The notes under the pieces are model-generated. The model saw nothing but the letters and a program-made list of their open reading frames with translations. It had not been told where the DNA came from and ran no database searches. This document shows, in pieces, positions 35,445-39,983 of a DNA stretch of 53,961 nucleotides. The DNA is from Verrucomicrobiota bacterium (GTDB lineage Bacteria; Verrucomicrobiota; Verrucomicrobiia; Opitutales; Opitutaceae): NCBI GenBank assembly GCA_028293565.1, contig JAQGON010000015.1, forward strand, positions 1 to 53,961. Direction: 5' to 3'. The stretch's first letter is position 1. Every line of letters begins with the position of its first letter. Both the position numbers and the translations under genes were made by a program.

Positions 35445-36668
35445 CTAATCCCCGTGCGGGGAGGTCACTTTCACGAGGTCCGGTTTTCGCACGGCCTGTT
35501 TCCGCTTCATCTGGTGCCGGCCGGGGCGCGCCGATTTCTTCACCGGGCGGAGACGGATCGAGCAGCCGCGCTCGGCGGACTCGAAGATCGCCTCGATGAT
35601 CCGGACGTCGGCCAGCCCTTCCTCCAGCGAAGGCTCGGGGTCGCAGTCCTCGAGAAGACATTTTGCGAAGGCCTCGATCTCCCCGCCGAACTGGTCGGTG
35701 CGGTCGAAGGTCTTTTCCTCGGACTCGTCGTCGATCGTGACCGTCTGGTGCAGGGCCTCGCTGTATTCGTAGGCGGGATCCAGCGCGATGCTTCCCTTGG
35801 TTCCGACCAGCTCATAACGGGCGCAGTTCGCGGCGCCGAAGCTCACGACAAACGAGGCGAGCCGCCCGCGGGGAAAACGCAGGAGCACCGCCGCGCTTTC
35901 CTCCACCTCGTCGAAACGCGTGTCGTCGGTCCGCGCGATCATCGCCGACACCTCGATCGGCTCATCCTGCATGAGATAGCGCGCGGCATTGATGCAGTAC
36001 GTGCCGATGTCGTAGACCGGGCCGCCGCCGCGTTCCAGCTTCAGCCGGATGTTGTTCGTGTCGGTGACCTGGTAACTGAAGGTCGAATTGAAATAGCGCG
36101 GTTCGCCGAGCTTGCCCGAGCGGACGAGCTCGATCGCCGAGAGATTGGCCGGCTCGAAGTGCAGCCGGTACGCCGTCATGAGGCGGACGCCGCCGGCGCG
36201 CGCGGCTGCGGCCATTTGGCGGATCTCCCGCTCGTGAAGGGCGAGGGGTTTTTCACAGAGGATATGTTTTCCGGCGCGGGCGGCGCGGATGACGCAGTCG
36301 GCGTGAAGGTCGTTCGGCAGGGCGATGTAGACGGCGTCGATCTCCGGATTCGCGAGGCACTCGTCAAATCGCTGATACGAATAGGTGTGCCGGACCTGGT
36401 ATTTTTTCTTGAGCGCCTTGAGTTTTTCGCGGTCGCCGGAAACGAGCGCGACGAGTTCGGCGTTCCTGGCCCGTTCGAAGCCGGGCAGGACCGCGACCTG
36501 CGCGATGTGTCCAAGACCAACGACGGCGTAACGGATTTTTTTCGCGGGAGCCGACGCGCTGTCGCCTGGGTTCGTCGAGACGGCGGACTCGTGATGAGAG
36601 GCGCCGTTGGCGGACCCGGCGGTCTCGCCGAGGCTGGCGGTGGAAGGGGTTTCTTTCTTGAAGGTCAT
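35445..36668 (-). CDS. Gfo/Idh/MocA-family NAD(P)-dependent oxidoreductase
   Basis: A 407-residue enzyme of the glucose-fructose oxidoreductase family. The Rossmann motif is RYAVVGLGHIAQVAVLPGF, preceded by a ~45-residue disordered N-terminus (SANGASHHESAVSTNPG). NPEIDAVYIALPNDLHADCV, HILCEKPLALH (the conserved EKP) and MTAYRLHFEPANLSAIELVR follow. The second domain has GGPVYDIGTYCINAARYLM, in which GTYC gives the catalytic region, and a C-terminal basic tail. Absence of a TAT or Sec signal suggests a cytosolic enzyme on sugars or inositols. Its substrate is not predictable. A terminator separates it from the upstream disordered protein gene. Confidence 0.92.
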   Translation of the reverse strand: MTFKKETPSTASLGETAGSANGASHHESAVSTNPGDSASAPAKKIRYAVVGLGHIAQVAVLPGFERARNAELVALVSGDREKLKALKKKYQVRHTYSYQRFDECLANPEIDAVYIALPNDLHADCVIRAARAGKHILCEKPLALHEREIRQMAAAARAGGVRLMTAYRLHFEPANLSAIELVRSGKLGEPRYFNSTFSYQVTDTNNIRLKLERGGGPVYDIGTYCINAARYLMQDEPIEVSAMIARTDDTRFDEVEESAAVLLRFPRGRLASFVVSFGAANCARYELVGTKGSIALDPAYEYSEALHQTVTIDDESEEKTFDRTDQFGGEIEAFAKCLLEDCDPEPSLEEGLADVRIIEAIFESAERGCSIRLRPVKKSARPGRHQMKRKQAVRKPDLVKVTSPHGD

Positions 36669-36794
36669 GGGAAAAGGGGAGAGTCGGGCGAGAGGCCCGG
36701 TTGGCGGTTTGGCGCGGGCGCGTCGGCCCGAGCGCGAACCTGGGAAATGGAAACGCGCCGGCGTCGCGCCGGTGCTGCCTGCGTTTGAACAAAA

Positions 36795-36826
36795 TGCTTC
36801 CGCGGGATCCACATCCCGCGGAAGCA
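36795..36826 (-). terminator. Rho-independent terminator of the disordered-protein gene
   Basis: A perfect 14-bp stem (TGCTTCCGCGGGAT at 36795-36808, inverse at 36813-36826) with loop CCAC. Read on the minus strand it is followed by TTTTGTT, and it starts 17 bp after the stop of the gene at 36843. This insulates that gene from the oxidoreductase downstream. Confidence 0.85.
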
Positions 36827-36842
36827 CGCCGATCTGTCGGGT

Positions 36843-38105
36843 TCAGTAATTTCGATTCGAAGAGCGTCCGCTGCGCGAACTCTCCCGCGAGTCATCGTAA
36901 TCCTGATTGCCGGAATTGCCGCGCGAACCGCGGCTGGAGTAACTGCGATCCTCGCCGGAGTTGTTGTTGTTGTCATCCTCGTCCTCGCCGGAATAACCGC
37001 GACCTTGGAAGCTGTTGTCGTCGTTGAAGTCGTTCCCGTTGGAATCGTCCGAGGAATAATTCCCGCCCTGGTTTGAAGAATAACGATTGTCGTCGTTTTC
37101 GTAGCGGCTCTGGCCGCCCTGGTTCGAGCCTTCGCTGCGCCAGTCCGAGTTCATGGAGCCCTGGCTGCGGCCGCCCTGGTTCTCGTACGACGGCCGATAG
37201 TCGTCGTCGTTCCCCTGGCCGCGTGAGCTGAAACGATCGTCGTTCTGGTTGCCCTGGCTCCAGTCATTGCGCTGGTCGTTGCGGCCGCGTCCGCCGTTCT
37301 GGCTGCCGTTGCCGCGGGACGACTGGCTGCGGCCCGAGTCGAAGGAGTCGTAGTTGCCGCCGGACGAACCCTGGTAGCTGTCGTAGTCTTCGCGGGAGCG
37401 CGAGCCGCCCTGGTCGTTGGCGGAGCGATTGGAACCGCCGCCGGATCCACGGCCCTGTCCGGAGTATTGGTTGCTGCCTTGGTTGCCTCCGGAGGACTGG
37501 TTGCTGCCGCGCCGGCTCGAGGAGCCGTAGCCGTCGTCCCAGTTCCGCCGGCCTTCGCCCCAGCCACCCTGATTGCCTTGGTTGCCCTGGCTGCCTTGGT
37601 TCCCCTGGTTGCCTTGACCGCCTTGGCTGCCGCGCGAGCTGAATTCCCGGCGGCTGGAGGACTCGGACGAGTAATCGCGTCCGTTGCCCCCGTGGTTCGA
37701 CGATCCGCCGCGGTCGTTTCCTCCGCGCTGCGACTGGCTGCCGCCGTAATTCATGGACTGAAAGCTGCGGTCGCCCCCGCGATTGGTGCCGCGGCTGTCG
37801 TCGCGGTCCTGCTGGTTTCCGCCGCTGCGGTTCTCGTTGCGGCCGGTGTTGCCGCGCTGCGAACTTCCCCCGCTGCTCGAGGCGTTCCAGCCCCGATTGT
37901 CGTCGTCGCTGTACTGCGATCCGCCGCCCCGGCTGCCCCGGCCCGAGCGGCCGTCCTGCGGGGAGGAGCCGCGGCGCGAGGAGGACGACGAAGACGAGGA
38001 GGATCCGGATCCGGATCCGCTGCTTCGTCCCTGCGGGCGCCTGGAACTTGAACTGCCGCTGCTGCGGCGGCCACCCGACTGACTTGACTGAGATTTACGT
38101 GCCAT
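36843..38105 (-). CDS. Ser/Gly/Arg/Asn-rich intrinsically disordered protein
   Basis: A 420-residue protein that is low-complexity throughout, dominated by S, G, R, N, Q, D with scattered Y, F and W and almost no aliphatic residues. It starts MARKSQSSQSGGRRSSGS, has a Ser tract, RG/RGG-like patches (RSGRGSRGGGS, RGGDRSF, RGGNDRGG), a GNQ tandem tract near 170-185, and a D/N-rich C-terminal third ending in SSRSGRSSNRNY. AGGAAATCCC before the ATG is a fair ribosome site, and a perfect terminator follows. Tyr/Arg-spaced sequence like this is known from proteins that form condensates or bind RNA; that role here is inference. No signal peptide is present. Confidence 0.82.
   Translation of the reverse strand: MARKSQSSQSGGRRSSGSSSSRRPQGRSSGSGSGSSSSSSSSSRRGSSPQDGRSGRGSRGGGSQYSDDDNRGWNASSSGGSSQRGNTGRNENRSGGNQQDRDDSRGTNRGGDRSFQSMNYGGSQSQRGGNDRGGSSNHGGNGRDYSSESSSRREFSSRGSQGGQGNQGNQGSQGNQGNQGGWGEGRRNWDDGYGSSSRRGSNQSSGGNQGSNQYSGQGRGSGGGSNRSANDQGGSRSREDYDSYQGSSGGNYDSFDSGRSQSSRGNGSQNGGRGRNDQRNDWSQGNQNDDRFSSRGQGNDDDYRPSYENQGGRSQGSMNSDWRSEGSNQGGQSRYENDDNRYSSNQGGNYSSDDSNGNDFNDDNSFQGRGYSGEDEDDNNNNSGEDRSYSSRGSRGNSGNQDYDDSRESSRSGRSSNRNY
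37567..37631. repeat. 9-bp tandem repeat inside the disordered-protein gene
   Basis: About seven 9-bp units of the form TTGCCTTGG/TTGCCCTGG, encoding Gly-Asn-Gln or Gly-Ser-Gln triplets on the minus strand. In-frame unit gain or loss could change the length of the tract. Confidence 0.7.
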
Positions 38106-38646
38106 GGGATTTCCTGTTTTTTTGGGTTTCTTCCGAAGGACTTTTCACCGGCTGTGGCGCGTTCGGATCTTCGGAATTCCGAAGCGGCTGGGGTGTTCAG
38201 GACCGATGGTTGAAAAGCCACTATAGCGCCGCATCCGGCCTGCCGGTATCGGGCGATTCTTGGAGGGCCGCATGGCATTTTTTCGGATGCCCCACCGGGA
38301 ATTTTCCCGTAGCCCCGCTAGGGGTCGTTTTTGCGGCATGTCGGCCCCCCTGAAAATTCCCTTTTCAGCGCCGAAAATTCAGCTGTCGACCAAGGACCGC
38401 CGAGGGCCAATCACTTGCTTTAGCTGCCCGCTCGCATGGGTGCGTCGAAACCAATAGACCCATTCCCGGATTCCCGGTTCCCGCTTCGAGCCTCGCGGCT
38501 TTACGCTATCGGAATAATGGGCAAGGTGGCATCGGTAAACTTCCCGACCCCGGATCGGATTTTTTTTGGAAACGGCATTTTTGCTGGCACTGGTCGGGTG
38601 GACGTCGGTCTGTCGCTGCATCCAATCCTCTCCCATCGCGAACCGC
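38106..38646. other. 541-bp divergent intergenic region with several short hairpins
   Basis: No credible gene is present. It holds the promoters of the disordered-protein gene (minus) and the LuxR regulator (plus). Visible dyads are CTGAAAA/TTTTCAG (38350-38368), CCCC-GCTA-GGGG just before TCGTTTTT, and GGGAATTTTCCC-like A/T-cored motifs. Possible minus-strand -10 is TATAGT near 38221; no matching -35 is evident. Local GC is lower than in the genes. Confidence 0.45.
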
Positions 38647-39357
38647 ATGAAATCCAAGGCCCCAGGCGTCATCGACCCTCCCAAATCCGCGCCCAAGAAA
38701 TCCGCCAAGACGCGCATTCTCCTGGTCGACGATCATCCGCTGCTGCGGCGGGGGATGCGGGCGCTGCTCGAGCAGCAGCCGCGGTTCGAGGTGTGCGCCG
38801 AGGCGGACAGCGCGCCGGTGGCGCTCGAGATGGTGCGGAAGTGGACGCCCGACCTGACGATCGTGGACATCAGCCTCAAGTCGACCAACGGGATCGAGCT
38901 GACGAAGGGGTTGAAGGTCGAGGCGCCCAACATGCCGGTGCTGGTGGTCTCGATGCACGACGAGGAGCTCTATGCCGAGCGCGCGCTGCGCGCGGGCGCG
39001 GTCGGCTATCTGATGAAGCACGAGGCGGGCGAGAAGATCATCACGGCGCTGGACCGGATCCTCGAAGGCGAAATCTATGTGAGCGACCGGCTGAAGGAGA
39101 AGATGCTGCACCGGTTCGTGAATCACCGCACCGAGAAAATCGTCTCGGTGATCGACACGCTCAGCGACCGCGAGATGGAGGTGCTCCAGCTGCTCGGCAA
39201 CGGCTTCGGCACGCGGGCGATCGCGAGCCAGCTCAAGCTCAGCGTGAAGACGATCGATTCGTATCGTGAGCATCTGAAGGTGAAGCTCGCCCTGAAGTCA
39301 GGGGCGGATCTCGTGCGCTACGCGATCCAGTGGATGAAGAGCCAGGCGATCATGTGA
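38647..39357 (+). CDS. NarL/LuxR-family response regulator
   Basis: A 236-residue regulator. A Lys/Pro-rich leader (SKAPGVIDPPKSAPKKSAK) precedes a receiver with RILLVDDHPLLRRGM, phospho-Asp in LTIVDISLKSTNG near 72, VLVVSMHDEELYAERALRAG and VGYLMKHE (Lys). The LuxR DNA-binding part is LSDREMEVLQLLGNGFGTRA, then IASQLKLSVKTIDSYREHLK and VKLALKSGADLVRYAIQW. All key receiver residues are intact. It is divergent from the disordered-protein gene and may regulate it. The hybrid kinase at 40314 is the nearest candidate partner. Confidence 0.9.
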   Translation: MKSKAPGVIDPPKSAPKKSAKTRILLVDDHPLLRRGMRALLEQQPRFEVCAEADSAPVALEMVRKWTPDLTIVDISLKSTNGIELTKGLKVEAPNMPVLVVSMHDEELYAERALRAGAVGYLMKHEAGEKIITALDRILEGEIYVSDRLKEKMLHRFVNHRTEKIVSVIDTLSDREMEVLQLLGNGFGTRAIASQLKLSVKTIDSYREHLKVKLALKSGADLVRYAIQWMKSQAIM

Positions 39358-39626: not shown

Positions 39627-39983
39627 ATGGCCAAAGACAAATCCCGCCCGAACACGAGCACGGTGCCCGAAATTGATCCCGACACGGCAGGGACGGAAAA
39701 GAGTTTTCCGCCTCCGGAACCGAAGAATTTTCCCAGCGGACCCTCGAACGATTACCCGCCGCCCACCCTCAGCGGCGGCCCCGGTCAGGATCCCTCGATC
39801 GAGCAGGGCACGGAGACCGCGCCGCGCGACCCGGAAAACCCGGAGCGGCCCGCGGGCGAACCGGAGGACTGGCAGCACTCTGTCGGCCCCAGCGCAGGCG
39901 GCGCGTCGACCGTCTCCACGGTTTCTTCCATGCGCTCGACGAGCGGCGACATCGACCGGCAGGATTTCCGTCGTCCGAGATGA
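39627..39983 (+). CDS. Small proline/acidic-rich hypothetical protein
   Basis: A 118-residue, probably disordered protein: KDKSRPNTSTVPEIDPDTAG, PPPEPKNFPSGPSNDYPPPT, then acidic TETAPRDPENPERPAGEPED and a serine-rich tail (STVSTVSSMRSTSGDIDR). A good ribosome site (CAAGGAGC) precedes the ATG. No family is recognised. It is alone, 269 bp after the LuxR regulator, and is followed by repeat-rich DNA. Confidence 0.65.
   Translation: MAKDKSRPNTSTVPEIDPDTAGTEKSFPPPEPKNFPSGPSNDYPPPTLSGGPGQDPSIEQGTETAPRDPENPERPAGEPEDWQHSVGPSAGGASTVSTVSSMRSTSGDIDRQDFRRPR

Follow-up and report, generated by a model that had tools for sequence, protein, structure and literature searches.

An apparent orphan gene for a 420-residue, predicted disordered protein among DNA-repair genes of a Verrucomicrobiota bacterium

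Proteins that are long, disordered from end to end and rich in arginine and aromatic residues have been discussed mostly in eukaryotes. The window analysed here, a whole stretch of 53,961 nucleotides of a Verrucomicrobiota bacterium (family Opitutaceae; contig JAQGON010000015.1 of assembly GCA_028293565.1), carries a gene that would encode a bacterial protein of this description. Is it a real gene? Does it have relatives? What might such a protein do beside genes of DNA repair? The gene and the features that bear on its expression as a unit are as follows.

36843–38105, minus strand: gene for the 420-residue, S/G/R/N/D/Q-rich, predicted disordered protein; ATG start, TGA stop at 36843–36845
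38112–38115, minus strand: Shine-Dalgarno AGGA, 6 nt ahead of the ATG, read from the sequence
37574–37631, minus strand: short tandem array of 58 bp, period 9/18, coding QGN/QGS repeats; the single array detected in the ORF
36794–36827, minus strand: intrinsic terminator with a 15-pair stem (one G-U), a 4-nt loop and a U-rich tail, 15 nt past the stop codon
35445–36668, minus strand: GFO/IDH/MocA oxidoreductase (Pfam), the next gene behind the terminator; ATG start inferred at 36668

The coordinates, strand and length given by the first-pass annotation were exact, and so was its description of low complexity over the whole protein. Ser, Gly, Arg, Asn, Gln, Asp and Tyr account for 384 of the 420 residues (91%), and complexity is low at 3.06 bits per residue. 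The full composition is S102 G88 R53 N48 D39 Q37 Y17 E12 F6 W5 M3 A3 P3 T2 K1 H1. There is no Leu, Ile, Val or Cys and only one Lys; 53 Arg stand beside 28 aromatic residues (Tyr, Phe or Trp). So long a protein of this kind had been called rare in bacteria. Among 3,582 ORFs of at least 100 aa from sources chosen for regulator or weak matches, and thus not a random sample, it indeed ranked first in S/G/R/N/Q/D/Y content (0.914) ahead of an Arg/Gly/Ala-rich frame in locus L124 (0.721), and second in mean hydropathy (−2.01; lowest −2.03). This set came from 153 sources and 1.26 Mb and included the ORF itself; five loci duplicating its stretch had been removed beforehand, and some of the loci kept overlap.

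The ORF looks like a real coding gene. Scored with a codon table built on 19 neighbouring genes, it reached 0.398 bits per codon, at the low end of those genes (0.38–0.84, leave-one-out), and the remaining five frames over it gave −0.83, −0.46, −0.63, 0.23 and −0.30 bits per codon with 2, 4, 4, 20 and 3 stops, respectively. Third-position GC is 0.80, compared with 0.80–0.91 in seven neighbours. All six serine codons are in use and 12 of the 34 adjacent Ser-Ser pairs switch between the AGY and TCN boxes, so that slippage of short DNA units is an unlikely source of the serine runs. This codon evidence (genome-like choice, mixed serine codons) and the presence of one 58-bp array argue against the spurious, repeat-expanded ORF that the first-pass annotation had named as the alternative, which fits poorly. 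The ribosome site and the gene's own terminator, both part of the same annotation, were found on the ORF strand. The 66-nt stretch around the terminator has a folding energy of −35.3 kcal/mol (z −5.6). Across the whole terminator scan, the 2 hits found did not exceed the 2.9 expected from shuffles, and the case for this terminator therefore rests on the length of its single 15-pair stem.

Does the protein have relatives? Homologues of conserved composition, whose absence from relatives the first-pass annotation had named, together with a lack of expression, as grounds to refute it, failed to appear at E ≤ 0.001 in searches from genus to phylum, in which the draws of genomes overlap. None was found at this threshold in 37 other related genomes, in 60 other genomes of the family (weak matches in 17 at E ≤ 10, best 0.0285), in 383 others of the class (weak matches in 12 at E ≤ 0.1, best 0.0011) or in 336 others of the phylum (reported to E 0.01); in the class and phylum searches, the best four to five first-look candidates were scored per genome. 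The result was the same in 36 genomes from several phyla that hold relatives of the neighbouring regulator (weak matches in 3 at E ≤ 1, best 0.144). The genome itself holds no paralogue to E ≤ 10. Furthermore, the protein matched no family in Pfam at E ≤ 0.01 or NCBIfam at E ≤ 10, including LEA, dehydrin and KGG, and no PDB chain by sequence at E ≤ 10. DNA patterns for runs of polar codons (VRN, NRN, NVN) were not selective for compositional relatives. In the part of the literature that was covered, the titles and abstract starts listed held no description of the protein.

Two of the weak matches were set aside on inspection. The best match in the class (E 0.0011, locus L133) has no S/G/R/N-rich ORF, its frames being an epimerase-like protein (by eye) and the antisense of it. 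In L135, an unrelated frame of 200 aa owes its match (67% over 34 residues) to a QGG repeat.

How distant a relative would have been seen? In a sensitivity control with phmmer at E ≤ 0.001, scripted copies of the protein were recovered in 10 of 10 cases when 30% of residues were kept and 2% indels added, and in 0 of 10 when 20% were kept; because replacement residues followed the same composition, "30% kept" corresponds to about 40% true identity by calculation. A fast-evolving relative could be missed, since the control was run apart from the genome search itself and indels may accumulate faster in disordered proteins. At the search sensitivity used, the protein is an orphan.

The disorder proposed for the entire protein was upheld by prediction. 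Its mean hydropathy of 0.277 at a mean net charge of 0.007 lies below the boundary of 0.416. AlphaFold2 gave a mean pLDDT of 34.4, with values below 50 at 414 of the 420 residues; this single-sequence run is weak evidence by itself because the program is often poor when given no alignment, and the case for disorder leans on composition. The protein is thus predicted to be disordered throughout.

The surroundings of the gene may point to its role. By Pfam, the window holds genes for Ku, a LigD polymerase/phosphoesterase, an ATP-dependent ligase, DUF892 and DUF72 proteins, a cyclopropane fatty-acid synthase type enzyme, a PLD-type enzyme, an HHH/PHP (PolX-like) protein, an FAD/Rieske oxidoreductase and a hybrid histidine kinase. 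The Ku, LigD polymerase, separate ligase, DUF892, cyclopropane synthase, PLD-type, HHH/PHP and FAD/Rieske genes are grouped between 22159 and 51353. The GFO/IDH/MocA oxidoreductase behind the terminator had no match at E ≤ 1e-90, the only threshold used, in the 37 other related genomes, and the stretch with it may therefore have been gained recently. On the other side of the gene, in and beyond a divergent region of 541 bp, lie the following features.

38169–38184, no strand assigned: perfect 16-bp palindrome in the leader, candidate operator, the sole exact copy in the genome
38220–38226, minus strand: CTATAGT, a −10-like element, suggestive only, 121 nt upstream of the ATG
38647–39357, plus strand: divergent NarL/LuxR-type response regulator with REC and GerE domains (Pfam)
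39627–39983, plus strand: putative small polar ORF 3' of the regulator, 118 aa, 9.3% Gly, GRAVY −1.28

How might transcription of the gene be controlled? A scan found no sigma-70 consensus promoter for the ORF, and EcfG-type and sigma-54-type patterns are absent from the 300 nt upstream of it. The palindrome has one other genomic place at up to 2 mismatches, and its reversed control pattern also matched in the genome (1 forward, 1 reverse). Within the window it recovered itself alone at up to 3 mismatches, so that no shared regulon site is shown. The palindrome and CTATAGT are candidates only as regulatory sites. More TTCGGA/TCCGAA half-sites lie near the palindrome, at 38132–38137 and 38162–38167. 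The region 36600–38700 had no Rfam match at E ≤ 1, and the predicted fold of the leader is no more stable than that of shuffled sequence (z 0).

The divergent LuxR-type regulator, correctly recognised in the first pass, has as its nearest named relatives an Opitutia (72%) and an Opitutaceae metagenome assembly (64%). Nine loci with relatives 59–74% identical were compared (L143–L149, L032 and L033), among which L149 (5.6 kb) holds a paralogue from the same genome as the window, L148 represents a second copy within genome G017, and L033 spans 9.9 kb. None of the nine contains an ORF of the 420-residue protein's composition. Since relatives of the regulator lack such a protein alongside, its control over the gene would be argued from position only. 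NHEJ genes lie within the fetched flanks of three loci (Ku in L032, ligase and LigD polymerase in L143, Ku in L145) and DUF892 in two (L032 and L145, at 35%); six have neither. The proximity of three of the nine to Ku, LigD/ligase or DUF892 genes hints at a regulator tied to NHEJ.

A short polar, hydrophobic-poor ORF directly follows the regulator in the window and in two of these loci (L032 6828–7244, L033 4939–5541). All three ORFs exceed 6% Gly, with GRAVY from −1.28 to −1.83, and those of the window and L032 have a common stretch of 11 residues, 9 of them identical. A search with the 118-aa ORF of the window gave a weak match in one of the 37 other relatives (E 0.0066).

What, then, might the protein be? 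A lineage-specific protective or droplet-forming protein is probable, because the protein is predicted to be disordered, lies among DNA-repair and membrane-lipid genes and has no relatives that could be found. The best explanation, to which we give about an even chance, is a fully disordered, hydrophilin-like protein specific to the lineage and induced by stress. It would be encoded by its own transcription unit in a DNA-repair/membrane-lipid island, with which it would probably be co-controlled. Under drying, osmotic or genotoxic stress the protein would accumulate, and it would shield proteins and nucleic acid in the cytoplasm or nucleoid. Self-association into condensates may occur via Arg-aromatic contacts, given 53 Arg, 28 aromatics, and a basic (+14) and an acidic (−11) half, and such condensates may take up RNA or DNA through the basic head.

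Hydrophilins have a hydrophilicity index above 1. The accessible part of one account defines them by Gly above 6% and high hydrophilicity (PMC4190154); the 420-residue protein has 20.95% Gly and a GRAVY of −2.01. This hydrophilin composition joins the codon score, ribosome site, own terminator, disorder, repair-gene context, the regulator relatives near NHEJ or DUF892 genes and the polar ORFs that follow the regulator in L032 and L033 in favour of a hydrophilin-like protectant. Against it stand the lack of a homologue or of conservation, the lack of such a protein beside the regulator's relatives, the six of nine regulator loci that lack NHEJ and DUF892 genes, the lack of a sigma-70 consensus, and the failure of aromatic spacing and charge halves to survive correction.

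Could the protein act chiefly by gathering nucleic acid? A condensate scaffold, in which RNA or DNA is bound by a basic N-terminal part and cohesion comes from an aromatic-rich, acidic C-terminal part, in stress-granule-like or repair-associated droplets, is a possible but rather unlikely reading. Consistent with it, the first 60 residues have a net charge of +11 and 27 Ser, the 28 aromatics always lie at least 3 residues apart, Arg is abundant, and NHEJ genes are close by. Sequence patterns beyond composition were examined as 35 features against 2,000 shuffles of the protein. The words clearly enriched were NQG and GNQ (8 each vs 0.9 each), QG (19 vs 7.8), NQ (13 vs 4.2) and DD (12 vs 3.6), the NQG words lying partly inside the tandem array. 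RGG (4 vs 2.3, P 0.19), SR (16 vs 12.9, P 0.18), RS (13 vs 12.9) and RSR were not enriched, and the RGG/SR-like character given in the first-pass annotation is thereby overstated; the absence of these words and of any Pfam domain at E ≤ 0.01 tells against a scaffold. RG (18 vs 11.1, P 0.013) and SS (P 0.0115) are suggestive only, each being one of 35 features. The same holds for the minimum distance between aromatics (P 0.02), for the evenness of their gaps (P 0.0245) and for the charge of the two halves (P 0.0075); aromatic spacing and charge halves do not survive correction for 35 features, and the weakness of the spacing result also tells against a scaffold.

A bolder version would see a FUS-like, fully disordered protein of stickers and spacers, basic at its head and acidic at its tail, that a bacterial lineage invented from scratch. 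On stress it would condense with nucleic acid and act together with the Ku/LigD island, controlled by a response regulator of its own, in convergence with a eukaryote-style stress condensate. We regard this as doubtful.

That the gene is instead an ORFan of recent origin, under weak constraint or without function, partly grown by repeat expansion and open by chance, is improbable to a similar degree. It would account for the lack of relatives at E ≤ 0.001, the tandem array, the low complexity and a codon score at the neighbours' low end, but the five other frames score lower and carry 2–20 stops, the serine codons are mixed, and the ribosome site and terminator are exactly placed. Drift would not be expected to leave a frame of 420 residues without Leu, Ile, Val or Cys. 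Finally, it is very improbable that the protein belongs outside the cytoplasm, as a surface, matrix or coat-like component: some matrix proteins are rich in Ser, Gly, Asn and Gln, but the protein has no hydrophobic stretch, hence by eye no signal peptide or membrane anchor, and repair genes lie close by.

How does the hydrophilin-like protectant that we prefer compare with known systems? Classical hydrophilins are Lys/Glu-rich, and bacterial ones reportedly include DtpA and DtpB of Acinetobacter, from the bacterial hydrophilin work of Green et al. (2022), which PMC10534466 cites. High glycine, extreme hydrophilicity and disorder are common to hydrophilins, as far as the accessible part of that account describes them, and to the 420-residue protein; the latter differs in being Arg/Ser/Asn/Gln-rich, with 28 aromatics, one Lys and no Pfam or NCBIfam family match. 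Eukaryotic FUS/hnRNP-type prion-like/RGG domains are S/G/N/Q-rich with spaced aromatics and Arg. The resemblance to condensate domains of this kind, claimed in the first-pass annotation, stands as far as composition goes (53 Arg, 28 Tyr/Phe/Trp) and fails for RGG and SR words. Among prion-like features, the protein has the polar low-complexity composition, and its aromatic spacing is suggestive only (P about 0.02 among 35 features). Unlike those domains, it has no RGG enrichment, no Pfam RNA-binding domain and no PDB sequence match. RNase E, SSB and PopZ are named as bacterial condensate scaffolds in the accessible part of one paper (PMC9312465), and their disorder-driven assembly is the property proposed for the 420-residue protein. 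RNase E and SSB contain folded domains as well, in contrast to a protein that is predicted to be disordered throughout and for which no relatives were found. Such genes may escape homology tools, because selection may act on composition and not on sequence. To conclude, set beside these systems the protein is an extreme orphan disordered protein and not a new kind of system. As a coding-like gene in a repair island, it offers a simple test case for the de novo origin of such proteins in bacteria and for whether composition alone suffices for protection or condensation.
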